A stretch of 64,000 nt of DNA from Chloroflexota bacterium (GTDB lineage Bacteria; Chloroflexota; JAJPGV01). The stretch covers positions 1-64,000 of the forward strand of contig JAJPGV010000035.1 of assembly GCA_021325635.1 (NCBI GenBank), written 5' to 3'. Shown here piece by piece: positions 283-15,118 of the stretch (its first letter is position 1; each line of letters begins with the position of its first letter). The notes under the pieces were generated by a model. It had not been told where the DNA came from, ran no database searches, and saw only the letters and a program-made list of their open reading frames with translations. Both the position numbers and the translations under genes were made by a program.

Positions 283-927
283 CTAGCGCCTCAACGGAAT
301 CTGCTGCGCGGAATCGGCGAACGAGGATAACCGGCTGTCAGAGCCAATCGACGACCGGCTCGAGGCCGGGGCGGCATTTGCCCCAGCCTCGTCCTCGCGG
401 CGTGAGACCTCGATGCGCTGTCGCCACACGTGCGCCAGCCACATGATGGCCAGCACCAGCGATGGCATGATGATCAGCCCGAATCTGCCCAGCGGGCTGC
501 GGACGGCCTCATGCAGATAGCCCAGCCCGGGGATGGCGAGCACCACCTTCCCAGCCGGATTGACCAGGTAGTTGACAGTCCAGCTGTCGGCCACGGGGTT
601 TGCGTCGCCACGGGTGACGAACGTCGGCTGATCGTCGCTGCCGAACCGCTCCACAACACGATGAGTGATCGTCTCCCCTACGTCTGACCGGTTATAGGTG
701 ATGACGTCGCCGACCTGGATCGCGCCGGGCGGCACCGCTTTGGCAAATACCACCGATCCCGTCGGAATGGCAGGCGCCATGCTGCCGCTCAGCACAATGT
801 AGGGCTGGTAGTGGAGCAGCGGCGGCAGCACCGCCGTAGCCAACATGAGCACCGCGGCCACGAACAGCACCGCGTAGCTAGCAACCTTGACAACGACGCC
901 GAGCAGCCGGCCGGCGCCCCTCGTCAC
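283..927 (-). CDS. SipW-type (ER-type) signal peptidase I, paralogue 4
   Basis: A 214-residue membrane-bound serine protease predicted to cleave signal peptides of TasA-like substrates outside the membrane. An N-terminal transmembrane segment (about residues 14-38) is followed by the catalytic core: SGSM with nucleophile Ser49, THR with His89, and GDAN with Asp108. Ser and His in place of a Ser/Lys dyad is the ER/archaeal/SipW type. A second hydrophobic segment lies near residues 150-175, then a charged, Ser-rich tail. The GTG start at 927 overlaps the TGA of the upstream peptidase gene (GTGA), which indicates translational coupling and rules out the longer upstream frame. It is the last recognised gene of the fibre cluster. 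Family and catalytic residues are clear; the substrate is inferred from the neighbouring TasA-like genes. Confidence 0.88.
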   Translation of the reverse strand: MTRGAGRLLGVVVKVASYAVLFVAAVLMLATAVLPPLLHYQPYIVLSGSMAPAIPTGSVVFAKAVPPGAIQVGDVITYNRSDVGETITHRVVERFGSDDQPTFVTRGDANPVADSWTVNYLVNPAGKVVLAIPGLGYLHEAVRSPLGRFGLIIMPSLVLAIMWLAHVWRQRIEVSRREDEAGANAAPASSRSSIGSDSRLSSFADSAQQIPLRR

Positions 928-1928
928 ACCGGCACCCCGGTTAGCTGAGACGAGCCTCGACGCCACAGCAGCGGAAGCAACATTCGGAGGAACAGGCCGG
1001 CCACCGCTAGGACAATCACGACGCGCACGAGCGGGGAATTGCTGTAGGCCAGCACGTAGCCCAGGTACGGGATCGCCAAGACGATCTTCCCGGCCGGACC
1101 CGTGTAATAGAAGTTCCACGGATCCGGCAGCTGATTGGCGTCGCCCTTGGTCTTGAACAGCACCCCCTCGCCGTCCCTCGACACCTCGTAGACTCGGTGC
1201 GTCACGGTAGCGTAAGGAGGCTCGGCCGAGGTGACAGTGATGACGTCGCCGACGACGACCGTCTCCGGCGCCACAGGCAGCGCCACCACCACGGAGCCGG
1301 TCTTGATGGCTGGCTCCATGCTGCCGCTGAGGACCGTGAGCGTGGTGTACACGCCCAGGCGAGGCAGAATCGACAGCAGCAGGAACGTCAAGGTCACGAC
1401 GCCGATAGCCAGCCCCGCGACGGTGCGGGTGGCCAGCCAGCCCAGCAGCCGCAGCGTTCCCTTAATCGCGGACGCTCTCAACACCGACAGCGTTACCGGC
1501 GTCAGCTCGAGACCGCCCAATGGCTCGGCAAGGTTGGCGATTGTCGCGGCACTTGAAGCCGGCCGAAGGGTGGCCGCGAATGTCCGGGCGGTTGGACCGG
1601 AAAGCGCCTTGCGCTCGTCAGCTGAGAGGTGAGAAGCGTGCGCTTCGATCACGGTGCGCCAATCGGGATAGCAGAATACTGGCTTGCTCTCAGTGACGTC
1701 GAGCTGAACGTCGTCGCCCAGCTGCACACGCAAGCCAGCGTCGGGGGTGAGAGCGGCAACCGATCTGGGCAGCCTGACGCGTTGGCGAGGCCACACATCC
1801 CGCGAAGGGCCGTAGCCATCAGACGCTCGGGGATGGAGGAACAGCGAGGGCTCCTGCTGGGCCGTCATGCCCATGAGCTTGAGGAGGTCGCGAGTGTCGG
1901 GGGCGAGCGCCTGAGGAGCTTCAGTCAT
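924..1928 (-). CDS. SipW-type signal peptidase I with a long N-terminal extension, paralogue 3
   Basis: A 334-residue protein. The C-terminal half is a SipW-like peptidase: a membrane segment at about 168-190, then SGSM (Ser203), THR (His244) and GDAN (Asp263), and a C-terminal membrane segment. Unlike its three paralogues it carries about 150 extra soluble residues at the N terminus, which I do not recognise (one Cys, the rest mostly polar). The ATG at 1928 is preferred because a GAGG lies just upstream and because the longer frame would begin inside the oligo-T end of a terminator (1951-1986). Its stop overlaps the GTG of the next peptidase gene. The extension would sit before the first membrane segment, so it is probably cytoplasmic, and may recruit a partner or regulator. 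That role is inference. Confidence 0.87.
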   Translation of the reverse strand: MTEAPQALAPDTRDLLKLMGMTAQQEPSLFLHPRASDGYGPSRDVWPRQRVRLPRSVAALTPDAGLRVQLGDDVQLDVTESKPVFCYPDWRTVIEAHASHLSADERKALSGPTARTFAATLRPASSAATIANLAEPLGGLELTPVTLSVLRASAIKGTLRLLGWLATRTVAGLAIGVVTLTFLLLSILPRLGVYTTLTVLSGSMEPAIKTGSVVVALPVAPETVVVGDVITVTSAEPPYATVTHRVYEVSRDGEGVLFKTKGDANQLPDPWNFYYTGPAGKIVLAIPYLGYVLAYSNSPLVRVVIVLAVAGLFLRMLLPLLWRRGSSQLTGVPV

Positions 1929-1950
1929 GCCCGCGCCTCGCGCAGGGCGC

Positions 1951-1986
1951 AAAAACGCCAGCCCGGAAAGGCGCTTCCGGCTGGCG
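1951..1986 (-). terminator. Intrinsic terminator between two signal peptidase genes
   Basis: On the minus strand an inverted repeat (arms 1975-1986 and 1956-1968, about 12 bp with one bulged base and a 6-nt loop) is followed directly by five T residues (plus-strand A run 1951-1955). It lies after the 2046-2735 peptidase gene and just before the start of the extended peptidase, so it would end or attenuate transcription between paralogues 2 and 3. Confidence 0.75.
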
Positions 1987-2045
1987 CGACCAAGCCCCCT
2001 CGTGGGCGCCGGCCCGGAGTCAGTGATGTTTGTGGCGCCATCGAC

Positions 2046-2735
2046 CTATCGCCTCAACGGCAGGGTTCGAACTGATTCCGGCCCGGATGGCGGGTCGGCG
2101 TAGGGCGGAGCAACCGATCTGGCAGGGCTGCTCGCGTCGGACGCCGGAGTCATGGCTTGAGGCAGCTCGCTTTCCTTCCTCCGCGAATTGAACCGCGCGC
2201 GCCACTGCTGACCCAGGTACATGAGCGTCAAGACCACCACCGGCACGACCAGCAGCACGATTCGTCCTATCGGACTCCCCAGCTCGGCGTACAGATACCC
2301 GACGTAGGGCACCGAAAGCACGACTTTGCCTGCCTGCGTCCCGGGTGCGAATTGGACCGACCATACGTCACGTTCGGGATTGGCATCGCCCTTGGTGACG
2401 AAGTTGGGGCTGGACTCATCTCCCCCCTTGTCGATGATGCGGTGAGTAACTGTTTCCGGCACGTCGGATCGGTTGTACGTGATGACGTCGCCAACCTTCA
2501 GCTGGGAGGGCTGGACCGCAACGTCGAACACCACCGCGCCGGTCGGGATCGAGGGCGCCATGCTACCGCTCAGCACGATGTAAGGCTTGTAGTTGACGAC
2601 CTGAGGCAGCAGCGACATGCTGGCAAGCAGGGCCACGGCAAAGCCGGCAATCACGTAGGTGATCAGCCGCACACCCACTTGCAGAATTCGGTCAGCGCGC
2701 ATGTTCGTCATTTCCAGGGAGTGGATGCCTGCCAT
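2046..2735 (-). CDS. SipW-type signal peptidase I, paralogue 2
   Basis: A 229-residue ER-type signal peptidase. It has a membrane segment at about 22-45, then SGSM (Ser58), THR (His98) and GDAN (Asp117), a second hydrophobic stretch near 155-178, and a Pro/Ser-rich C-terminal tail. ATGs at 2735, 2711 and 2702 are in frame; the last would give the same Ser spacing as paralogues 1 and 4. It is separated by 81 bp from paralogue 1 upstream and followed by an intrinsic terminator. The tail ends TLPLRR, and paralogues 1 and 4 end in similar basic PLRR motifs, which supports recent duplication. Confidence 0.88.
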   Translation of the reverse strand: MAGIHSLEMTNMRADRILQVGVRLITYVIAGFAVALLASMSLLPQVVNYKPYIVLSGSMAPSIPTGAVVFDVAVQPSQLKVGDVITYNRSDVPETVTHRIIDKGGDESSPNFVTKGDANPERDVWSVQFAPGTQAGKVVLSVPYVGYLYAELGSPIGRIVLLVVPVVVLTLMYLGQQWRARFNSRRKESELPQAMTPASDASSPARSVAPPYADPPSGPESVRTLPLRR

Positions 2736-2816
2736 CCATGGGGGCAGGTTGCACTGCTGGACCTTGACAGAGTATCACTCGCCGGCTGCTGCATGGCCTT
2801 TATTGGCTAGCCTTCG

Positions 2817-3461
2817 CTACTGCCGCCGCAAGGGCTGCGTCTGCTTGCCATTTGGCGGCTGGGAGCCCGTGGCAGAACGCGCCGCCGCAATCGTGGCTGG
2901 CCTGGCGTTGGGCTGCGTCTCGTCTGCCGTCCTAGGCGCCGCCGGCCGGTCGCTGGGACGCCAGATCTGCAGCAGCCACAGCGCCAACAGCACACTGACC
3001 GGAATGATGACCAGGAACAGGTGTCCCTGCCGCGTGCCCAAGGCGTGGTACAGGTACCCGACAAACGGGACCGACAGCACGACCTTGCCGGCCGTGGCAC
3101 CGAACTGCACCGTCCACGGATCGTTCACCGCGTTGGCATCCCCTCTCGTCGAAAAGGAGGGCGTGGCCCCATCCTCGGAGACGGCGACGATGCGATGAGT
3201 GATGGTTTCCGCGATATCCGAGCGGTTGTAGGTGATGACGTCGCCGACCTTCAAGGTCGTGGGGTCCACCGGCACGGCCACGACCACCGCTCCCGTAGGG
3301 ATGGCCGGTGACATGCTGCCGCTGAGCACGATGTAGGTCCGGTATCCGGCCACAGATGGGAGCAGTGTCAACCCCAGGATGAGGATCGCGGCCACACAGC
3401 CCAGCACCAGGGTCAGGCCTTTGACCACCAGCTCTATCCGGCCGGAGGCGGTTGGCTTCAC
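2817..3461 (-). CDS. SipW-type signal peptidase I, paralogue 1
   Basis: A 214-residue ER-type signal peptidase. Its catalytic Ser49 (SGSM), His89 (THR) and Asp108 (GDAN) occupy exactly the same positions as in paralogue 4. Membrane segments lie near 11-34 and 148-172. The GTG start at 3461 is chosen because a strong purine-rich ribosome-binding site (GGTGGAGGTGG) lies a few bases upstream; the longer frame would overlap the preceding subunit gene by almost 400 bp. Its start is 15 bp after the stop of a TasA-like gene (3476-4384), the arrangement of a SipW-TasA operon. The last residues are PLRRQ. The substrate is inferred to be one or more of the four TasA-like proteins. Confidence 0.9.
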   Translation of the reverse strand: MKPTASGRIELVVKGLTLVLGCVAAILILGLTLLPSVAGYRTYIVLSGSMSPAIPTGAVVVAVPVDPTTLKVGDVITYNRSDIAETITHRIVAVSEDGATPSFSTRGDANAVNDPWTVQFGATAGKVVLSVPFVGYLYHALGTRQGHLFLVIIPVSVLLALWLLQIWRPSDRPAAPRTADETQPNARPATIAAARSATGSQPPNGKQTQPLRRQ

Positions 3462-3475
3462 CAATCCACCTCCAC

Positions 3476-4384
3476 CTAGTGAGCGGACCCGGCCAGCTGA
3501 CTCGCCGTCCAGGTGTAGGTCAGATTGGAGTTGGTGATGTTGGCCTTGGTGCTGTCCGAGGTAGCCGGCAAATACACCAGCATCGTCAGGCTGTCGGTTT
3601 TGCCAATGCCCAGAGAATTGACCCCGGCCACGGTCGGGGTTCCGGACGACGCCACGATGGAGACACTGCTCAACCCATCCAGCCCGGTAGAGCCGTTGCC
3701 CCCATAGCACGACGTGGCCCCCGAGCCCACCTTGACCCCATTGTCGGTCACACCTGACGTCGTAAACGTAATCGTGCCTACCGGGAGTCCGTTCGTCAGC
3801 ACCGGGGGCGTGCCCAGGTAATGTTGCGGTGTGAAGGAGGTCGTACCTCCGCACGAGCCGTACACCAGCTGCAGCTTCCCGGTGGCGTCGGTGGTCGTGC
3901 AGTCTTCATCCACGGTCCCCGCGGAGTTCGTGCACTCGAACACCAGCAGCCCCAGGCCCACTGTGCTGGACGCGGACCCAACGGCCCCGGATCCCGTATT
4001 GGTCAAGCCGTTCGACCCTCCGGCGTCGGCAATGCCCAGCGCAACCGTGACCGTCGCCGTGCTCGAGGTTTGGTTGGTGAGCTTCACGGTGCCGAACTGC
4101 TGCTCGCCGGGAATCATCGAAGTAAACGTCCCCACCGCCGTGCTGCATCCCGTGCCCGAAGCCGTGCCGCCGAGGGTCGACGTGCAGAGATTGACGCCAA
4201 TCGCATCCTGGAAGTTGATCCCCGCGGTACTGAACGTGTTGGACCCGCTGCTTGTTATCGCGCTGAACGAGGCGAAGGTGCCACCCCCGACGATCGCGCC
4301 GGCCACGCCCAGTGCCAGCAGGCTGAGCATCAGATTGCGGACGGCTATCCGCGGCACGGCTTGAACGCGGCCCGGATGGCTCAC
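3476..4384 (-). CDS. TasA/camelysin-like secreted protein, subunit 4 (divergent copy)
   Basis: A 302-residue secreted protein of the SipW-dependent TasA/CalY type. A basic start is followed by an RNLM-SLL-LG-AG signal segment (residues 16-30) and then TFASFSAITSS, the motif found just after the cleavage region in TasA-like proteins. The mature part is rich in Gly, Thr, Ser and Val, has several Cys residues, and ends with a strand-rich module closing in YTWTASQLAGSAH. It is the most divergent of the four copies: its middle lacks the CTGTPTMGSSGF block of the others. The GTG start at 4384 has only a weak ribosome-binding site. It is immediately upstream of signal peptidase paralogue 1. Function as a fibre or matrix subunit is inferred from the family. 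Confidence 0.8.
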   Translation of the reverse strand: MSHPGRVQAVPRIAVRNLMLSLLALGVAGAIVGGGTFASFSAITSSGSNTFSTAGINFQDAIGVNLCTSTLGGTASGTGCSTAVGTFTSMIPGEQQFGTVKLTNQTSSTATVTVALGIADAGGSNGLTNTGSGAVGSASSTVGLGLLVFECTNSAGTVDEDCTTTDATGKLQLVYGSCGGTTSFTPQHYLGTPPVLTNGLPVGTITFTTSGVTDNGVKVGSGATSCYGGNGSTGLDGLSSVSIVASSGTPTVAGVNSLGIGKTDSLTMLVYLPATSDSTKANITNSNLTYTWTASQLAGSAH

Positions 4385-4459
4385 CCGATCACCATAACTG
4401 CTGCTTCACCATCGGCCAACAAGGCCGGTACCTTCCTACGAGCTTGGGCGCGCTTCCCG

Positions 4460-5350
4460 CTAGTGAGCGCTACCCACACCCGTGGCAGTCCAGGCAAACG
4501 TGAGGGTCGTGGTGTTGGTGCCCGCCGAAGATTGATTGTTGCCGGCCTGTCCCGGGAGGTACATCACCGCGGCGTAGTCGTCGGAATGCCCCTGAGCTAT
4601 GCCGAGCGCCGGCGTGCCGGTTGAGCCAGGCTGAGGAATCGCGTCGAAACCCGTAATCGACACGCTGCTCACCGAATTCAAGGCCGTTGCAGAGTTGCCG
4701 GGCGTGCAGGCAACTCCACCGACCACGATGTTCGCGTCGGCCGTATCAGCGCTGGCCACCTGCGAGCTTCCGAAACCGCTCGAACCCATGGTGGGCGTCC
4801 CCGTGCAGGTTCCGTACAGCGGGTAGAGCTGCCCGGCATTGGTGTTGCACGGGCTTGGCTGATCGAAATTGCCCGCGCCAATGCAGCGGAAGAGCAGCAG
4901 CCCTAGCCCCGCCGACGACCCCGAAGGGGCGTTCGCCGCGATGCTATTCGACGAGCTGGACGAGATGCTCAAGGCGAGCTGCACGGGCCCGTTGCTGTTG
5001 GTGGTGTTAGTTACGGTCAGCGTCCCGACGGCACTGTCCCCGGCAATCATGTTGCTAAGCGAAATCAGCGCGTTGCAGGTTGCCGGACTCGTGCCGTTGC
5101 TGTCCGCTGTGCAGACCGTGCCCCCATTGGGAACGTTGGTGAATTCGATGAGACCGGTGCTGAAGGTGTTGCCGCCGTTGGTTGTGACAGCATTGAACTG
5201 CGCGAACGTGCTCAAGGCGATCACGGTGCCCGCGGTACCCAGCAGCAGCAGGCTGATCATCAGGTTGCGAAGGCTGTCCAGCCGCGGGGCTAATGAACCA
5301 CTCTCTGAGCTTTTCATCGCTTTCATCACTCGCTCACTATTTGCGCCCAT
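4460..5350 (-). CDS. TasA/camelysin-like secreted protein, subunit 3
   Basis: A 296-residue protein with a longer polar N terminus than its siblings. The RNLM-SLLLLGTAG signal segment (about 28-41) is followed by TFAQFNAVTTN and NTFSTG, identical in kind to subunits 1 and 2. Paired Cys residues flank the middle (SPCN, YGTCTGTP, GVACTP), so disulfides are likely in the exported protein. The C terminus is a Thr-rich beta region ending FAWTATGVGSAH. The ATG at 5350 directly abuts the TAG of the upstream subunit gene; ATGs at codons 9 and 12 are alternatives. A secreted, polymerising surface subunit is the family-based expectation. Confidence 0.82.
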   Translation of the reverse strand: MGANSERVMKAMKSSESGSLAPRLDSLRNLMISLLLLGTAGTVIALSTFAQFNAVTTNGGNTFSTGLIEFTNVPNGGTVCTADSNGTSPATCNALISLSNMIAGDSAVGTLTVTNTTNSNGPVQLALSISSSSSNSIAANAPSGSSAGLGLLLFRCIGAGNFDQPSPCNTNAGQLYPLYGTCTGTPTMGSSGFGSSQVASADTADANIVVGGVACTPGNSATALNSVSSVSITGFDAIPQPGSTGTPALGIAQGHSDDYAAVMYLPGQAGNNQSSAGTNTTTLTFAWTATGVGSAH

Positions 5351-6196
5351 CTAATGGGTACTGCCGATTCCGGCAGCCGTCCAGTTGAAGGTAAGGGTGG
5401 CCGTGTTGGTACCGGCGGATGACTGCGTATTGCCGGCGATGCCGGGCAAATACACGATGCCCGCGTAGAAATCGGAATGGCCTGCCGAGATCCCAAGCGC
5501 GGGCGTTCCCGTCGAGCCGGGCGAAGGGACGGCGTCGAACCCGGTAAGGGACAGGTTGCTGATCGCGTTGAGCGCTGTGGCAGTCGGGGTGCAGGTGACA
5601 CCGCCGACCACGATGTTCTGATCGGTCGTGTTCGCGCTGGCCACCTGCGTCGTGTTGAATCCACTGGAGCCCATCGTGGGCGTGCCGGTGCAGCTGCCGT
5701 ACAGCGGATAGAGCTGCCCGCTGCTGGTATTGCACGTGACTGGCGAGTTGTAGCTTCCGCCCGGACTTGCTCCCACACAGCGGAAGAGAAGCATTCCCAG
5801 TCCGGCTGAGGCGGAGGCCGTGGGGACGTTGGCCACGATCGAATTGCTGGTGCTCGACGAGACGCTCAGGCTCAGCTGCACGGGTCCGTTGCTGCTGCTG
5901 GTGTTCGACACCGTCAGCGTGCCGACCTTGCTGTCACCCGCGACCATGTTGGATAGCGTGAGGAGGCTCGAGCAGGTGGCCGGTGAGTTATTGGCTCCGC
6001 CGCCACTGCTCTGCGAAGTGCACGCCGCCCCACCATTGGCGGTATTGGTCACCTGGATGAAGCCCGTGCTGAAGGTGTTGCTGGGATTCGTCGTCACCGC
6101 GTTGAACTGGGCAAACGTACCGAAGCTGCCGGCCGCGCCGGCCACGCCGAGCGCCAGCAGCGTGAGCATGAAGTTACGAATGGTCTCGCGAGTCAA
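5351..6196 (-). CDS. TasA/camelysin-like secreted protein, subunit 2
   Basis: A 281-residue secreted protein. Residues 6-20 (IRNFMLTLLALGVAG) form the short export segment, followed by TFAQFNAVTTN and NTFSTGF. The mature region has Cys residues at equivalent places to subunits 1 and 3 (CTSQ, ATCS, RCVG, VTCN, GSCTGTP, VTCTP) and a C-terminal strand-rich module ending FNWTAAGIGSTH. The start is TTG at 6196 with GAGGGAG about 8 bases upstream. It is close in sequence to subunits 1 and 3, so the three are tandem duplicates. The 172-bp gap before it (6197-6368) contains short GC-rich inverted repeats but no convincing promoter or terminator. Confidence 0.82.
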   Translation of the reverse strand: MTRETIRNFMLTLLALGVAGAAGSFGTFAQFNAVTTNPSNTFSTGFIQVTNTANGGAACTSQSSGGGANNSPATCSSLLTLSNMVAGDSKVGTLTVSNTSSSNGPVQLSLSVSSSTSNSIVANVPTASASAGLGMLLFRCVGASPGGSYNSPVTCNTSSGQLYPLYGSCTGTPTMGSSGFNTTQVASANTTDQNIVVGGVTCTPTATALNAISNLSLTGFDAVPSPGSTGTPALGISAGHSDFYAGIVYLPGIAGNTQSSAGTNTATLTFNWTAAGIGSTH

Positions 6197-6368
6197 AGAC
6201 GACTCCCTCGGACGAGACGAACCGCCTCAGCCGGAGTCGACCTACGCGCAGGCACCTGCCTGCGGCCATTGCCTGGCTGGCAAGCTTCACGCCGGAACCG
6301 GCCCGTCCCTGCAATATGCTCGAGGGTCATGACCGGATTCCGGCGTGTTTGCTACTCAGGACCGGTTA

Positions 6369-7205
6369 TCAGTGGGCGCTGCCGATACCCGTGGCTGTCC
6401 AGTTGAAGGTGAGCGTGGCGGTGTTCGTGCCGTTGGACGATTGGGTGTTGCCCGCGGTGCCTGGTAGGTACACCACGCCCGCCATGTTCTCCGAAGTGCC
6501 GGCGTTCATACCCAGGGCAGGCGTGCCGGTGGAGCCGGGTGAAGGCACGGAGTCCGGCCCGTTTATCGAGATTCCAGTCACCGCGTTCAGAGCCGTAGCC
6601 GTCGGGGTGCAGGTCACGCCGCCGATCACGATGTTGGCATCGGCTGAATTGGCGCTCGCCACCTGCGAGCTTCCGAAGCCGGATGCGCCCATGGTCGGCG
6701 TGCCGGTGCAGGTGCCGTAGAGCGGAAAGAGTTTGCCACTGGACGTGTTGCACGAAGCAGGCTGGTTGTAGTTACCGGTTCCAACGCAGCGGAACAGGAG
6801 CAGCGCCGCGCCGGATGAGCTGGTGGCGTTGGGAGTGTTGCTGACGATGGTATTGCTGGTACTGGAAGATAGGCTCAGCGCCAGCTGGACCGGGCCATTG
6901 CTGGTCGAACTGTTCTGGATGGTCAGTGTGCCAACCTTGCTGTCTCCGGCAATCATGTTGGACAGCGTCAAGAACGTCGAACACGTTTGCGGTGAGTTGC
7001 TTGCTCCGCCACCACCGCTGAACGAGTTGCAACCGGTACCGCTATTAACGGTGTTCGTTACTTCGACAAAGCCTGTACTAAAGGTGTTATTCGGGTTTGT
7101 CGTCACCGCGTTGAACTGTGCAAAGGTGCCCAGGCTTACCACGGACCCGGCAACTCCCAGGACCAGCAAGCTGAGCATGAGGTTCCGGATTGTCGATGCT
7201 TGCAT
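6369..7205 (-). CDS. TasA/camelysin-like secreted protein, subunit 1
   Basis: A 278-residue protein, first of the four subunits in transcription order. Residues 6-20 (IRNLMLSLLVLGVAG) are the export segment; TFAQFNAVTTN (27-37) and NTFSTGF follow. Six or more Cys residues and the block YGTCTGTPTMG are shared with subunits 2 and 3, as is the C-terminal LPGTAGNTQSSNGTNT to FNWTATGIGSAH segment. The ATG at 7205 is preferred over the longer frame because the export segment then starts at residue 6, as in subunit 2, and an AGG lies about 7 bases upstream. It has its own promoter candidate at 7294-7323, giving a leader of about 80 nt. Family assignment is good; the fibre role is inferred. Confidence 0.83.
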   Translation of the reverse strand: MQASTIRNLMLSLLVLGVAGSVVSLGTFAQFNAVTTNPNNTFSTGFVEVTNTVNSGTGCNSFSGGGGASNSPQTCSTFLTLSNMIAGDSKVGTLTIQNSSTSNGPVQLALSLSSSTSNTIVSNTPNATSSSGAALLLFRCVGTGNYNQPASCNTSSGKLFPLYGTCTGTPTMGASGFGSSQVASANSADANIVIGGVTCTPTATALNAVTGISINGPDSVPSPGSTGTPALGMNAGTSENMAGVVYLPGTAGNTQSSNGTNTATLTFNWTATGIGSAH

Positions 7206-7293
7206 CTTTGACCTGCTTCTTCTCCCTACTTCCACCAGCCAAATACGACGAACAAGCCGCGCCGGTTGGCGGTGCCACCTTACATTCCTGCGG

Positions 7294-7323
7294 ACTATAC
7301 ATGTGAGCAAAACCCTCGCGCAA
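7294..7323 (-). promoter_or_regulatory. Sigma-70-type promoter for the TasA-like subunit genes
   Basis: On the minus strand, TTGCGC (7323-7318), an 18-bp spacer and TATAGT (7299-7294) lie in the gap after the Wzy/TPR gene. Transcription would begin near 7287, about 80 nt before subunit 1, so the subunits can be expressed more strongly than the upstream membrane genes. Confidence 0.55.
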
Positions 7324-7364
7324 CAAGCGTCATACAGCCTAGCCCATTTGGGTGCAAAGCGGTA

Positions 7365-10300
7365 CTAGGATGGGTTGCTTCGCGCCGCGGTCCCCGTGGC
7401 CACCTGACGAATGACGTCACGCCACAGAGCTTGCTCTGCCGGAGGAGCTAGGCTCAAGCCTTGGGCCGCGCTGTCTACAGCGGCATCCGAATCGCCCAGG
7501 GCCTGATAGGCTGCGACCAAGCCGGACAGCAGCGGCAGCCGATCGCTGCTCGTCGTGGCCAGCGCCAGGGCGTGCCTGTAAGCATCGGCCGCTTGCTCTG
7601 GCTCTCCCAAGGCCTGCCTCGCCTTGGCGGCGCCCGTCCATCCTTGCAGCGATCCTGCCCGCTCGTAGGCCGTAACAGCCTGCTCGAAATCCCGCCGGCG
7701 CTGCTCCTGGTCAGTGCTCGCTTGCGCTTGCCTGGCCCAGACGTCGCCCAGGACGGCGTAGGTCTGCGGCGCATCCCAATTCTCTCCGGTCTTGAGGGCC
7801 CGCTCGATCTTCGCCAGCGCCCCGGCGGCATCGCCTGTCTGCATGCTCAGCGCGGCCCATTCCGCCCACAGGCGCTCGCGATTGGGCGCAAGCGCCGCGG
7901 CGGCGGCAAAGCTCTGGTCCGCGCTACGGGCGAAGCCCGCCGCCTGGGCCGGATCTGACAGAGAAATCGCCGCGAACTCCTCCACGCGGGCCAGATTTAC
8001 AGATGTGTCGGCGCTGAGCGGGTGAAGCTGTTGCGCCGCCGTGACCTGAGCCAGCGCCTGGCGATACAAGGCATCGGCCTGGCCCGCGTCCCGTACCTGA
8101 GGAAGGATCCGCAGGTAGGACTGGGCTAAGTCGCCCCGCCAGGCGTCCTCGCTGGGCACCAGCTGCACGGCCTGCTGCTGCAGCGCGGCGGCGGCCTGGT
8201 AGCCTCCTTGAGCACTGACGCCGCTGGCCGCGTTGATGAGCATGTCGCCTTGAATCGGCCGGAGGAACCAGGCGTAGGACAGATTCGCGGCAAGCACAAT
8301 GGCCGAACCACCCAACCCCAGCCAGCTCCATCCAACCCTCAGCTTCAGCCGCCCCTGTTCCAGCACCGCGATCTTGCCCGCTCCGAGCGCGATGAGGACG
8401 ATTAAGGCAAGCAAGGCGACGGCAGCGGTTGGATATCCCAGACCATGCCAGTCGGCTCGGCTGACGACATCCGCTGCTTCTTGGGAAGCCCCGCTTCCAC
8501 GCCCCAGAACCCACAGCAGCCCAGCCGAAAAGACGGCGCCGGTGGACAGCCCTGAACCGAGCAAGACGATTGCCGGTCGGGCGGCGGTAGTGAGAAGCGC
8601 CGCGCCGAACGCGAACGATCCCACGAGCAGGCCGGCGACAGCTATGGTTGTGACGCCGCCACTTCCCACGAAGTCGTAGGCCAGGACAACCGCCAGCGCG
8701 GCAGAGATGAAGGAAGGAACGAGCGTCTCGTCCGTCCTGACGGATGGTCGAGCGTCTTCATGGAGCCGTGGGATGACGAACAGCAGCGCGGCATATGTCC
8801 ACAGGTACAGCCAGGTCGCGCCGATAGCGACTCCGAATTGGCTTTCGGCAAAATGCGCCAGACAGCCAGCCAGAAGCCCAGCGGCCAGCAGGCTCTCTCC
8901 CCGCTGCCATGGAGTCCAGCTGTCGCGCCTTGCTCGAGCGAGCAACACACCGAGGCGCACCAGCAGGCCCAGCACGAGGCCAGCGGGCAGGCCGATCCCG
9001 ATGAGCGACGGCCCGCCCAGCAAGAGCGCGGCCAGACCACCCAGCGCCGCTCCTCCTCCCATGCAGGCCAACGACAGAACGCGGCGCCGCTTGATGGCAC
9101 GTGACTCCAGGGCCAACAGACCCGTGCACAACAGAGCAGCGAACAGCATCAAATACGTCACGATTCCGGGAATCCCACCAATGACCAGCGCGTCGAGCGT
9201 TTCGTTGTGCGGCCGGTCCCACACGTTGGCGTGATCGTGCACGCCAATCGCTGCCGAGTAGAACGGGCTGAAGGTATCGGCCATCGTCTCGGGGCCATAG
9301 CCGACCAGCAGGCGCAGGCCCGCCAGAGGGTCGGGGGCTCCGCCCGGATAGACCAGCGTGTCCGCGGTCATCATGCGCATCGTCCCGCTCCACAGCTCGA
9401 GACGCAGCAGGACGCTCTCGTCATGGCTGAGGATCAGGTTGCCCAGACGGCCGGTCCCCGGCAGGTCACCCAATCGGGCTGCCGGGCTGCCCGGAATATT
9501 CAGGAACAGGAACGTCGCCAGGGCCAAGCCCGCGCTTCTCAGCAGCGCCGTCAGAATCAGCCGGCGGCCAGCCGCCAGCAGCAGGCACAGGAACCACAGG
9601 CCCAGGATCAGACCGACCAGCGGCCCCCTGCTGGCTGTCAACCACAGCCCAACGAGCTGGACGATACCCGCGCAAGCAAGACCCACGGTGCGTGCCGTGG
9701 CCGGAGCGCGCCAGCCACCTTGCGCGCGGCGGTCACGCACCTCTCTGGCCAGACAAACGCCGGTAAGGGGAAGGACCATCACCAGATAGGCACCGGCGAA
9801 CAGGGCGTTGCCGAACGTCGACAGCACTCGACCGAGCCCCCCACGCCATGGCAGCGGATCCTGGCCAAGCCCCTGCACGATGCCATACAGCCCCACAACG
9901 GCGCCCACCAGGATCATCGTGTGGACCAGGCGCCACAGCTGAGCGGGCCGCCGAAGATTCGCCGCTATGGCCGCGAAAATCGTGACGTAGCTCAGCATGC
10001 TGATGGTCCCCTGCGAGCGCAGATACGAACCCCAGAAGCTCATGCGCGGGTTCACGGACAGCGCGGTGCTGAGCAGGTAGGCTGCCACGAGGGCGACCAC
10101 GGCCAGCAGCAGTGGCTCGCGCCAAAGCGACCGGCCAATCACTCGAGGGTCCACGGCTGGCGCCAGCCCGGCATTCCGCAGCGCCCACAGCTTCAGTCCC
10201 CAGGCGAACAGCATCACCAGGGCGATGCTGCGCAGCAGCGCGAGCTTGTCCGGCTCGAAGATGCGCGTCGAGTATTGATTGAAGAACAGCGGCACCACAA

Positions 10301-10475
10301 TCGCCGCCGCCAGCCAGCCCGCTTCCAGCAGCGCATCACAGGCGGCTACGACTCTCGCCGCTGCGCGAGCCGTGGAGCGCGACGCGCGCGGACCACCCAG
10401 CCGCACCTGTGCAACTCGAGAGGCTTTCGAACGTCCTGCCGGAGCGCGCACCTGCTCGCCCGCAGCCGGCGTCAT
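7365..10475 (-). CDS. O-antigen ligase/Wzy-family membrane protein with C-terminal TPR-like repeats
   Basis: A 1036-residue protein. About the first 750 residues are a long series of hydrophobic segments typical of the Wzy_C (O-antigen ligase / O-oligosaccharyltransferase) superfamily, with the large polar loop expected between late segments (VYPGGAPDPL and GVHDHANVWDRPHNETLD, the latter a typical HNE-type motif). The last 300 residues are soluble and Ala/Gln/Tyr-rich helical repeats of TPR character. Such enzymes move lipid-linked glycans onto an acceptor: a lipid A core, a polymer, or protein Ser/Thr. In this cluster the Ser/Thr-rich subunits are plausible acceptors, but that is inference. 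The ATG at 10475 overlaps the TGA of the upstream anchored protein (ATGA), so the two are translationally coupled. Confidence 0.82.
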   Translation of the reverse strand: MTPAAGEQVRAPAGRSKASRVAQVRLGGPRASRSTARAAARVVAACDALLEAGWLAAAIVVPLFFNQYSTRIFEPDKLALLRSIALVMLFAWGLKLWALRNAGLAPAVDPRVIGRSLWREPLLLAVVALVAAYLLSTALSVNPRMSFWGSYLRSQGTISMLSYVTIFAAIAANLRRPAQLWRLVHTMILVGAVVGLYGIVQGLGQDPLPWRGGLGRVLSTFGNALFAGAYLVMVLPLTGVCLAREVRDRRAQGGWRAPATARTVGLACAGIVQLVGLWLTASRGPLVGLILGLWFLCLLLAAGRRLILTALLRSAGLALATFLFLNIPGSPAARLGDLPGTGRLGNLILSHDESVLLRLELWSGTMRMMTADTLVYPGGAPDPLAGLRLLVGYGPETMADTFSPFYSAAIGVHDHANVWDRPHNETLDALVIGGIPGIVTYLMLFAALLCTGLLALESRAIKRRRVLSLACMGGGAALGGLAALLLGGPSLIGIGLPAGLVLGLLVRLGVLLARARRDSWTPWQRGESLLAAGLLAGCLAHFAESQFGVAIGATWLYLWTYAALLFVIPRLHEDARPSVRTDETLVPSFISAALAVVLAYDFVGSGGVTTIAVAGLLVGSFAFGAALLTTAARPAIVLLGSGLSTGAVFSAGLLWVLGRGSGASQEAADVVSRADWHGLGYPTAAVALLALIVLIALGAGKIAVLEQGRLKLRVGWSWLGLGGSAIVLAANLSYAWFLRPIQGDMLINAASGVSAQGGYQAAAALQQQAVQLVPSEDAWRGDLAQSYLRILPQVRDAGQADALYRQALAQVTAAQQLHPLSADTSVNLARVEEFAAISLSDPAQAAGFARSADQSFAAAAALAPNRERLWAEWAALSMQTGDAAGALAKIERALKTGENWDAPQTYAVLGDVWARQAQASTDQEQRRRDFEQAVTAYERAGSLQGWTGAAKARQALGEPEQAADAYRHALALATTSSDRLPLLSGLVAAYQALGDSDAAVDSAAQGLSLAPPAEQALWRDVIRQVATGTAARSNPS

Positions 10476-11962
10476 GGGAAAGACGTCGCCGTCCAGATGA
10501 GCGATACCGTGGTCGAAAGGGTGCTGAACGAGTTGCCTGCGCCGGAAGGAAGCGACACCACCAGGCTGAGCGTATCCGTTTGTCCCGGATTGAGCACCAC
10601 GCCCATGGACTGATTGCTTACCTGAACAGGCCCGCTGTAGATCGTCGATCCCCCTCTCGAGATGGCCAGCTGCAGACCGTTCGTGGCGTCGGTCCACAGC
10701 GCGCCGCAGCCCGCGGTGCAGCTGGTGCTGAGCTTATAGGTGAACGCCCCGGTGCCGCTGTTCGTCACGGTCGAGGACTGACTGAAACTGTCGCCGGCGA
10801 TCATGCCGGAGACAGTAAACAGCCCGAAGCCCGCATTCGTCGTGGTAACGCTGATCGGATTCGTCGCCGGCGTGGCCGCCGGCACGGGAGTGTCAGTCGG
10901 TCCTGGCGCCGACGTCGGAGCCGAGGTTGGCGCGGTCGTCGGCACCGACGTCGGCGCGGTCGTTGGAGCGCTGGTCGGTGCGGAGGTTGGCACCGTAGTC
11001 GGGGCGGACGTAGGCGCGGCCGTAGGCGGAGCGGGTGGCGGGACCGACGTCGGCGCCGGTGGCGGGGAGCTCGCAGCCGGCAAGCTGGGCGGCGGCGAAG
11101 AGGGAGCTGGCGAGCTTGGCGGTGGCGAGCTGGGAGGTGCCGACGGCGCCGCCGATGAGGAAGGCGACGGGGATCGCGCGGGAGCCGACGATGAAGGCAC
11201 ACTGAGCACCACCGTGTCGCCCTGCCGGTTAACCACACTCAACGGTCCCCCTCCCGGGGGCACGGGCGGACGGCCGGGGGAGGGCGTCGGTGACGCGGAA
11301 GGCTTGGGCTCGAAGAAGTCCTTGCTCAGGTCGGATGGCCGGAAGGCGGTGATCTTACTTGCGCCTTGAGCCAGGTCGCTGATGCGCGCCTTATCCTGGA
11401 GGGCTTCCGCCACGATGTTGCTGCTTACGCTGCTGACCTTGGCCAGCTCCGAAGCGGATAGTGGCGCCAGCTGCACACCGTTGGCAACCAGCGCGGCTGC
11501 CTGTGTGGCCACTTTGTCCAGGTACAGATCCTGAACACGCTGGCCAAGTCTGTCGGGCTGGAAGCTGAACGGGATCGACGTGAAGGCTCGCAGCGCCATG
11601 TCCGTTGCCCCGGTGAAGGTCAAGACCACGATCCCTCCCCCTACGACGAGAGAAGTTCCGACGACCGACGCGGCGGTGCCGCGCCAGCCCCCGAACAGCC
11701 AGCCCATGATCTTCCCGAAGCCCGCTTGCTCGGCTCCTTCTCCCGCAACCTGAGCCATGGTGGCCGCGGAGGCCTCCGACGCTTGCGGAAGGACGCGGGC
11801 GGCCGCGCGCAGGTCCTCCTCGCTGGAGGAGATGACCGCCGACAGGTCATCGAGAGCTTCGCCTTCAGCGGTTTCCTGGGCCGCCGAGACAATGGAGCTC
11901 AGGTCATCGAGTCCATTACCCGGCGGCTGGTTGCCGGGTGGAAATCTGCTCAGCGGCTCCAC
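10472..11962 (-). CDS. Membrane-anchored Pro/Thr-rich protein with a TasA-like C-terminal module
   Basis: A 496-residue protein, first gene of the surface cluster. The cytoplasmic N terminus (1-93) contains two copies of an LDDLS-type motif (about 18-26 and 38-46). One transmembrane segment follows at about 94-117, then a helical region to about 220, then a 150-residue linker rich in Pro, Ser, Thr and Ala, with PTSAPT-type repeats near its end. The last 125 residues resemble the mature part of TasA/camelysin proteins: a FTVSGMIAGDS start, an NPGQTDTLSLVVSLP segment and a terminal WTAT motif. The architecture suggests a wall-spanning anchor or cap that presents a fibre-like domain outside. The N terminus could be a signalling tail, but I see no anti-sigma signature. 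The start is GTG at 11962, with no clear ribosome-binding site. Confidence 0.72.
   Translation of the reverse strand: MEPLSRFPPGNQPPGNGLDDLSSIVSAAQETAEGEALDDLSAVISSSEEDLRAAARVLPQASEASAATMAQVAGEGAEQAGFGKIMGWLFGGWRGTAASVVGTSLVVGGGIVVLTFTGATDMALRAFTSIPFSFQPDRLGQRVQDLYLDKVATQAAALVANGVQLAPLSASELAKVSSVSSNIVAEALQDKARISDLAQGASKITAFRPSDLSKDFFEPKPSASPTPSPGRPPVPPGGGPLSVVNRQGDTVVLSVPSSSAPARSPSPSSSAAPSAPPSSPPPSSPAPSSPPPSLPAASSPPPAPTSVPPPAPPTAAPTSAPTTVPTSAPTSAPTTAPTSVPTTAPTSAPTSAPGPTDTPVPAATPATNPISVTTTNAGFGLFTVSGMIAGDSFSQSSTVTNSGTGAFTYKLSTSCTAGCGALWTDATNGLQLAISRGGSTIYSGPVQVSNQSMGVVLNPGQTDTLSLVVSLPSGAGNSFSTLSTTVSLIWTATSFP
10903..11031 (-). repeat. Coding minisatellite for a Pro-Thr-Ser-Ala linker
   Basis: Imperfect tandem copies of a roughly 12-bp unit encode PTSA/PTTA-type tetrapeptides in the extracellular linker of the anchored protein. 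The regular period makes copy-number change by slippage likely, so linker length may vary between strains. Confidence 0.7.
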
Positions 11963-14925: not shown

Positions 14926-15045
14926 GGGATGGAGGGCCACGGGAGCACTTTCAGCCATCCCTTGCCTGGTGGCAAATCGAAGCCATCGCGGCGCGCGCTT
15001 GCGCACGGCTGGAATGCGCCATTCTGAGCTCAGAAGAGCCCGTTG

Positions 15046-15118
15046 TGAGCGCCCAGGGACTCGAACCCTGAACCGGCTGATTAAGAGTCAGCTGCTCTGC
15101 CAGTTGAGCTAGGCGCCC
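15046..15118 (-). tRNA. tRNA-Lys (anticodon CTT)
   Basis: A 73-nt cloverleaf on the minus strand. The acceptor stem is 7 bp with one G-U pair, the D-arm GCTC/GAGC, and the anticodon stem GCTGA/TCAGC with loop CTCTTAA, giving anticodon CTT (Lys). The T-arm is CAGGG/CCCTG with loop TTCGAGT, and the discriminator base is A. No CCA is encoded. All stems pair fully. Confidence 0.97.

Follow-up and report, generated by a model that had tools for sequence, protein, structure and literature searches.

What kind of surface structure is encoded by a gene block that sets four TasA-like proteins beside four SipW-type signal peptidases? In Bacillus, the TasA/SipW system builds biofilm fibres. The block studied here lies on the minus strand at positions 283-11962 of a stretch of 64,000 nucleotides (the window), which begins at base 1 of contig C56 in the genome of a Chloroflexota bacterium (G000, a 4.64-Mb draft in 63 contigs). 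It is taken up by ten genes in the order anchor, Wzy-TPR, S1-S4 and SipW1-4, all at or very near the positions proposed in an initial annotation. We consider it fairly probable that the locus encodes a membrane-anchored TasA-type donor-strand fibre, which is probably heteropolymeric. Judged from sequence comparison, the gene set is real and conserved, and the most informative new point is a stalked, TasA-headed anchor that recurs beside SipW in two phyla.

A stalked anchor with a TasA-like head

The anchor was delimited by its open reading frame (ORF), its transmembrane (TM) helix and profile comparison:

10472..11962, minus strand: anchor, 496 aa, with a cytoplasmic N-terminal region, one TM helix, a Pro/Ser/Thr-rich stalk and a C-terminal TasA-like head
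10898..11176, minus strand: stalk of the anchor, rich in Pro, Ser and Thr
10475..10891, minus strand: TasA-like head domain of the anchor (residues 358-496)

The single TM helix covers residues 98-116, and the best 60 residues of the stalk are 78% Pro, Ser or Thr. The head (residues 363-493) matched a TasA profile built without any G000 sequence at E 7e-7, with no signal peptide in the match, and in hhalign it matched the TasA-like alignment A5 at E 5e-5 with a score above 40 shuffles. The proposal of a TasA/SipW-type surface-fibre system with a non-classical layout, made in the initial annotation, is supported, the C terminus of the anchor being TasA-like. A pattern search found no TasA-like donor segment in the head. 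The anchor gave no meaningful match to PDB sequences and no match in NCBIfam, the TapA model TIGR04087 included.

By BLASTP, the head is 28% identical over 137 residues (E 1.3e-7) to that of an actinomycete protein (L085:3845-5269). When three heads (window, L089 and L085) were combined in a profile, it retrieved a homologue in a second cluster of the same genome (C27; E 9e-19), directly before the Wzy-TPR gene there, and another one in a different Chloroflexota genome (L054/G328; E 5e-18). With these five heads, the profile brought in stalked anchors at three more actinomycete loci (L192, L193 and L195; E <= 1e-16). In whole-genome searches with eight heads, strong matches (E <= 2e-40) were confined to a single additional Chloroflexota genome out of 400 and to 7 of 101 genomes from the order of L089; most of these are rows of the model itself, so that a match is built in, and G452, G403 and G499 are the new ones. 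Weaker matches were mostly ordinary TasA-like proteins. At every locus whose contig allows the check, anchor and SipW are near each other, about 7 kb apart in the window and about 4 kb or less elsewhere. Besides C27, which belongs to the same genome, the co-conservation that the initial annotation had called for was found for these two genes in G328 and several genomes of actinomycetes.

The actinomycete loci usually have the order TasA-like genes, SipW, a further protein with a SipW signal, a dCache-like sensor, the anchor and a large protein, which carries Big_3_5 Ig repeats in both of the two cases checked. No sensor of this kind is present in the window. The second cluster of the genome was read as follows:

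C27:30000-49900 (L009 1471-14150): sensor-cyclase, anchor, Wzy-TPR, TasA-like, SipW, TasA-like, SipW, 998-aa protein

It shares with the window the order anchor, Wzy-TPR, subunits, SipW. Its sensor is related to an actinomycete dCache-like sensor and fused to a cyclase, and the 998-aa protein combines Big_5 and fn3 domains with a signal segment that is SipW-like. A limited search of the open-access literature, with most subscription papers outside it, found no description of this anchor type. The conservation of this TM-stalk-TasA-head protein next to SipW in both Chloroflexota and Actinomycetota opens the anchor to direct testing.

The subunits are remote relatives of TasA

6369..7205, minus strand: S1, TasA-like subunit with a SipW-type signal peptide
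5351..6196, minus strand: S2, TasA-like subunit
4460..5350, minus strand: S3, TasA-like subunit; the top PDB fold match of its model is the TasA fibre 8AUR
3476..4384, minus strand: S4, TasA-like subunit, divergent member; above the cut-off of TIGR04088

S1-S3 are 67-75% identical among themselves and form a clade in the subunit tree (support 100/99), whereas S4 shares about 32% identity with them. The ratio of nonsynonymous to synonymous substitution rates of S1-S3 pairs is about 0.14-0.17, and thus these are constrained genes. The tree indicates cluster-specific duplication of the subunits; its branches are long and its deep forks unsure. With TIGR04088, which describes the SipW-dependent signal, S4 scored above the cut-off and S1 below it (16.2 versus 19), and S2 and S3 gave no match, although their segment is alike in the alignment. 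When the cut is assumed after the Ala of TFA, Phe stands at P2' in all four subunits, as in TasA.

Direct searches gave little. Pfam and NCBIfam had no match for S2 or S3; PF12389 (TasA/camelysin; gathering score 22.5) scored 13 bits with S4 and did not match S1-S3; and a search of PDB sequences with the subunit alignment found no match. Because a scan of genome contigs with this alignment found no relatives, these were located via SipW instead. In other Chloroflexota, SipW-linked proteins exceeded the PF12389 cut-off, and their profile matched the sequence of the TasA structure (5OF1/8AUR) at E 1.4e-11 and, weakly, AbpX of PDB (E 0.23). The window subunits matched this TasA-like profile at E 1.4e-12 in hhalign, much of the match lying on the signal peptide. 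After removal of the signal peptides the profile score was 32.4, whereas 40 column shuffles reached no more than 12.1, which indicates that the N-terminal half of the mature subunits is TasA-related as well. With a profile free of G000 sequences, the E-values were <= 2e-7 for S1-S3 and 0.002 for S4. On these profile comparisons, S1-S4 are remote TasA relatives, with S4 the weakest.

The comparison of a subunit structure with TasA, suggested in the initial annotation, pointed towards this relation with modest confidence. Mature S3 was modelled from an alignment of 37 sequences (predicted local distance difference test, pLDDT, 61; predicted TM score, pTM, 0.63). Among 350,542 PDB chains, the best fold match was the TasA fibre 8AUR (probability 0.97, E 6.7e-3, TM score 0.38-0.39), and this fibre form outranked the TasA monomer. 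Since TasA-family proteins were in the alignment, the fold match is support and not independent proof. An earlier model from six sequences was discarded (pLDDT 41.5; TasA at rank 20 in its fold search).

In composition the subunits stand apart from 277 other TasA-like proteins: Ser and Thr make up 26-31% (median of the others 16%), charged residues 2.4-6.4% (median 20%), and six cysteines are aligned (median 2).

Four SipW-type peptidases of two subfamilies

All four peptidases exceed the cut-off of TIGR02228 and were typed by tree:

2817..3461, minus strand: SipW1, type A peptidase with a C-terminal PLRR tail
2046..2735, minus strand: SipW2, type A peptidase with a C-terminal PLRR tail
924..1928, minus strand: SipW3, type B peptidase, long N-terminal extension with a LAPDTRDLLKLMGM motif
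283..927, minus strand: SipW4, type A peptidase with a C-terminal PLRR tail and a GTG start

Scores with TIGR02228 (archaeal/endoplasmic reticulum-type signal peptidase I) were 90.7-94.2 bits, the cut-off being 51.85. The Ser, His and Asp active-site residues are kept (SGSM, THR, GDAN), with TM helices flanking; that some of the copies are decayed was rejected, these residues being intact in all four. With the Bacillus SipW equivalog NF046067 the scores (80.7-91.1 bits) remained below the 190-bit cut-off, and by family score SipW1-4 are SipW-like, not Bacillus SipW.

The initial annotation had stressed the combination of four subunits with four peptidases. Both sets are present, and the number of peptidases is indeed unusual: among 101 SipW loci (found by similarity, G000 included, some contigs truncated and at least one sampled twice), 90 have one SipW, nine have two, one has three, and only the window has four. 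The number of subunits, in contrast, is not distinctive, as 2-5 TasA-like genes per SipW locus are normal in this survey.

Beyond the window, G000 has three more SipW-type genes, two in the C27 cluster and one on contig C20. In a tree of 63 SipW domains, SipW1, SipW2 and SipW4 form one clade (98/91) whose sister is one of the C27 enzymes (96/94); these are type A. The type B clade (99/97) unites SipW3 with the enzyme on C20 and the second one of C27. On this tree, the A/B split is one between two old subfamilies, of which the window holds three A and one B. Both types occur in both G000 clusters, and the window cluster expanded type A to three. The pairwise identity of SipW1, SipW2 and SipW4 is 48-50%. 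The presence of four peptidases from two old subfamilies allows a test of substrate division among SipW enzymes.

In all four type A peptidases, i.e. SipW1, SipW2, SipW4 and L009:8908-9558, an unconserved tail leads to a terminal PLRR, with no more than one residue behind it. Such an end was present in only 7 of 6083 ORFs scanned and is possibly a docking motif. The type B peptidases at window positions 924-1928 and at L010:9302-10423 have a common motif, LAPD(T/S)xDLLxxMG(M/L), in the N-terminal region before the first TM helix; this motif occurred nowhere else among the ORFs scanned. The latter gene, that of the C20 enzyme, is a lone SipW-type gene that directly adjoins the RNA polymerase alpha gene and has no TasA-like gene in its vicinity. 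A 20-kb locus in a metagenome-assembled genome of the Oscillospiraceae (L130) holds nine TasA-like genes and three SipW-like matches, two of the latter being proteins without the usual SGSM motif.

The Wzy-TPR protein

7365..10475, minus strand: Wzy-TPR, 1036-aa membrane protein of the Wzy_C (O-antigen ligase) family with about 16 TM segments and TPR-like repeats at its C terminus

Wzy-TPR matched Pfam Wzy_C at E 2e-5, with 24.9 bits as a single stretch (under the cut-off of 31.7) and 34.8 bits with the pieces joined (over it). An HN..L motif is found at residue 423 and is present in all five Wzy-TPR members compared. Pfam and NCBIfam gave no specific match to a protein O-oligosaccharyltransferase family. 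Wzy-TPR stands beside TasA/SipW in three loci (window, C27 and L089). Two further members of the family are encoded in G000 away from TasA/SipW, one in a polysaccharide cluster and one alone.

The genomes searched have 5-9 Wzy_C matches each, and we estimate that one lies within 10 kb of a given locus by chance in roughly 5% of cases. With the G000 clusters counted once, two of about seven loci have Wzy-TPR, which is only modest evidence for linkage; it gains from the start overlap in the window and from the matching gene order in C27. The dedicated glycosyltransferase of the initial annotation holds in so far as Wzy-TPR is present in both G000 clusters and in one actinomycete locus; its dedication is put in doubt by the other anchor-SipW loci examined, where it was not found, and by the two members elsewhere in G000. 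Protein glycosylation by Wzy-TPR is plausible, and the linkage raises the possibility of glycosylated TasA-type fibres.

A model of the fibre and its alternatives

The sequence supplies three elements of the model: subunits that bear SipW-type signal segments and are TasA-like in their N-terminal half (least clearly in S4), SipW-type enzymes with intact active-site residues, and a TM-stalk-head anchor without a SipW signal. The mechanism itself follows the precedent of the family (PMC9674648, PMC10151520, PMC13082335). SipW would cut the subunits outside the membrane and thereby free an N-terminal donor strand, which would insert into the next subunit, so that polymerisation proceeds by strand exchange. 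The anchor head, with no donor strand in front of it, could accept the strand of the terminal subunit, and the stalk would tie the fibre to the cell. The peptidases would provide capacity and perhaps selectivity. The probable role of Wzy-TPR is to attach or polymerise a glycan; its target would be the Ser/Thr-rich fibre and stalk or else a matrix polysaccharide alongside them. Duplication in this lineage gave rise to three subunits and three peptidases out of four each, which makes a mixed fibre probable.

Several results weigh against this model. When the mature parts alone were searched by HMMER with the G000-free profile, only S3 was detected, at E 0.24. The S3 model is of modest confidence, its input alignment held TasA-family proteins and the E-value of its fold match is only 7e-3. 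The donor-segment pattern of the six G000 subunits is not clearly enriched in the whole family (29 versus 22 expected from shuffles), and the donor-strand residue pattern was therefore dropped as evidence. The cluster-specific duplication of the subunits does not fit an old one-to-one pairing with the peptidase types; such a pairing of subunit classes has no support in the SipW and subunit trees. Wzy-TPR was not found in the fetched stretches, some of them short, around the other anchor-SipW loci. Polymerisation, anchoring and glycosylation are steps that we infer.

The possibility that S1-S4 are separate monomeric surface proteins (adhesins or camelysin-like) and not fibre subunits is favoured by their remote relation to TasA and by CalY of B. 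cereus, which also has a role as a surface adhesin (PMC13082335). Yet polymerisation is on record for TasA, BsaA and CalY/TasA in other bacteria (PMC9674648, PMC7395162, PMC13082335), and the fold search ranked the TasA fibre over the monomer, so that we regard monomers as unlikely. An S-layer-like sheet instead of separate fibres, which the initial annotation had allowed for, would suit low-charge, Ser/Thr-rich secreted paralogues and a stalked anchor. However, Pfam and NCBIfam showed no S-layer or wall-binding domain that would support it, and the family precedent is fibres; this reading is very improbable.

Two alternatives concern parts of the donor-strand fibre model. The four peptidases could reflect gene dosage, being tandem copies of overlapping specificity among which the subunits are not divided. 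The in-place duplication pattern, seen in the clades of SipW1, 2 and 4 and of S1-S3, and the like active-site motifs of all four enzymes agree with this, but the three type A enzymes have diverged more than S1-S3, and type B is kept distinct from type A in both clusters. We hold dosage to be quite possible, if slightly disfavoured. Much the same balance applies to Wzy-TPR as an ordinary polysaccharide polymerase or ligase for exopolysaccharide, unrelated to fibre modification and sharing a matrix regulon or present by chance. The several Wzy_C genes per genome, the G000 family members in a polysaccharide cluster and alone, and the failure to find it in most other anchor-SipW loci point in that direction; its overlap with or position directly after the anchor gene in the two G000 clusters, its place near the anchor in L089 and the unusually Ser/Thr-rich subunits and stalk point in the other.

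A broader reading of the donor-strand fibre would be a class of membrane-tethered TasA-type organelles common to Chloroflexota and Actinomycetota. Their base would be stalked and carry a TasA-like head as acceptor, and their fibre would consist of several kinds of subunit, glycosylated and with disulfide bonds. A sensor-like partner would be present in most loci, and several SipW enzymes would each release a subset of the subunits and so order assembly. This is speculative, and in its full form rather doubtful.

Comparison with known systems

The locus resembles tapA-sipW-tasA of B. subtilis (8AUR; PMC9674648, PMC10151520) in that a SipW-type peptidase adjoins TasA-like subunits with SipW-type signals and a distinct minor protein belongs to the set. 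It differs by its four subunits and four peptidases, by having no TapA match, and by the addition of Wzy-TPR and of the TM-anchored, stalked, TasA-headed protein. Unlike B. subtilis TasA, the subunits have six aligned cysteines and very few charges. The sipW-tasA/calY/capP locus of B. cereus (PMC13082335) likewise combines two or more TasA-like subunits, which form mixed filaments in that species, with an accessory protein. However, it has a single SipW, no Wzy-TPR is described, and the description of CapP is not that of a stalked anchor with a TasA head. In sipW-bsaABCRSD of Clostridium perfringens (PMC7395162), SipW, a filament protein and further secreted proteins share one operon, again with one SipW and with no stalked anchor or Wzy-TPR described; its linked sensor BsaS/R has a counterpart in the sensor-like gene beside the C27 cluster and the actinomycete loci. 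The archaeal bundling pili (cited in PMC9674648, PMC10151520) are TasA-related donor-strand fibres outside Bacillota; their only sequence hint here is the weak AbpX match of the relatives' profile, and gene neighbourhoods were outside this comparison. With the Wzy_C family (O-antigen ligases, Wzy polymerases and O-oligosaccharyltransferases), Wzy-TPR shares the many TM segments and the HN..L motif; it adds the C-terminal TPR-like repeats and the TasA/SipW linkage, and its sequence places it in the family only.

Gene junctions and surroundings

Two start/stop overlaps described in the initial annotation are present: anchor and Wzy-TPR overlap in ATGA, and the GTG start of SipW4 overlaps the TGA stop of SipW3. 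S2 and S3 abut, the S2 stop ending at 5351 and the S3 ATG lying at 5350. A separate, internal promoter claimed at 7294-7323 was rejected as not above chance, since a 14-kb scan found no sigma-70-like site where 1.4 are expected by chance. As the window opens at contig base 1, the cluster is covered only up to that point on its downstream side; a possible further gene after SipW4 (VIQVSRAGLTAAPNSQ...) occupies positions 1-91 on the minus strand and is cut by the contig end. Outside the block, a tRNA-Lys (CTT) on the minus strand at 15045-15118 is the sole tRNA and the sole Rfam match in the window.

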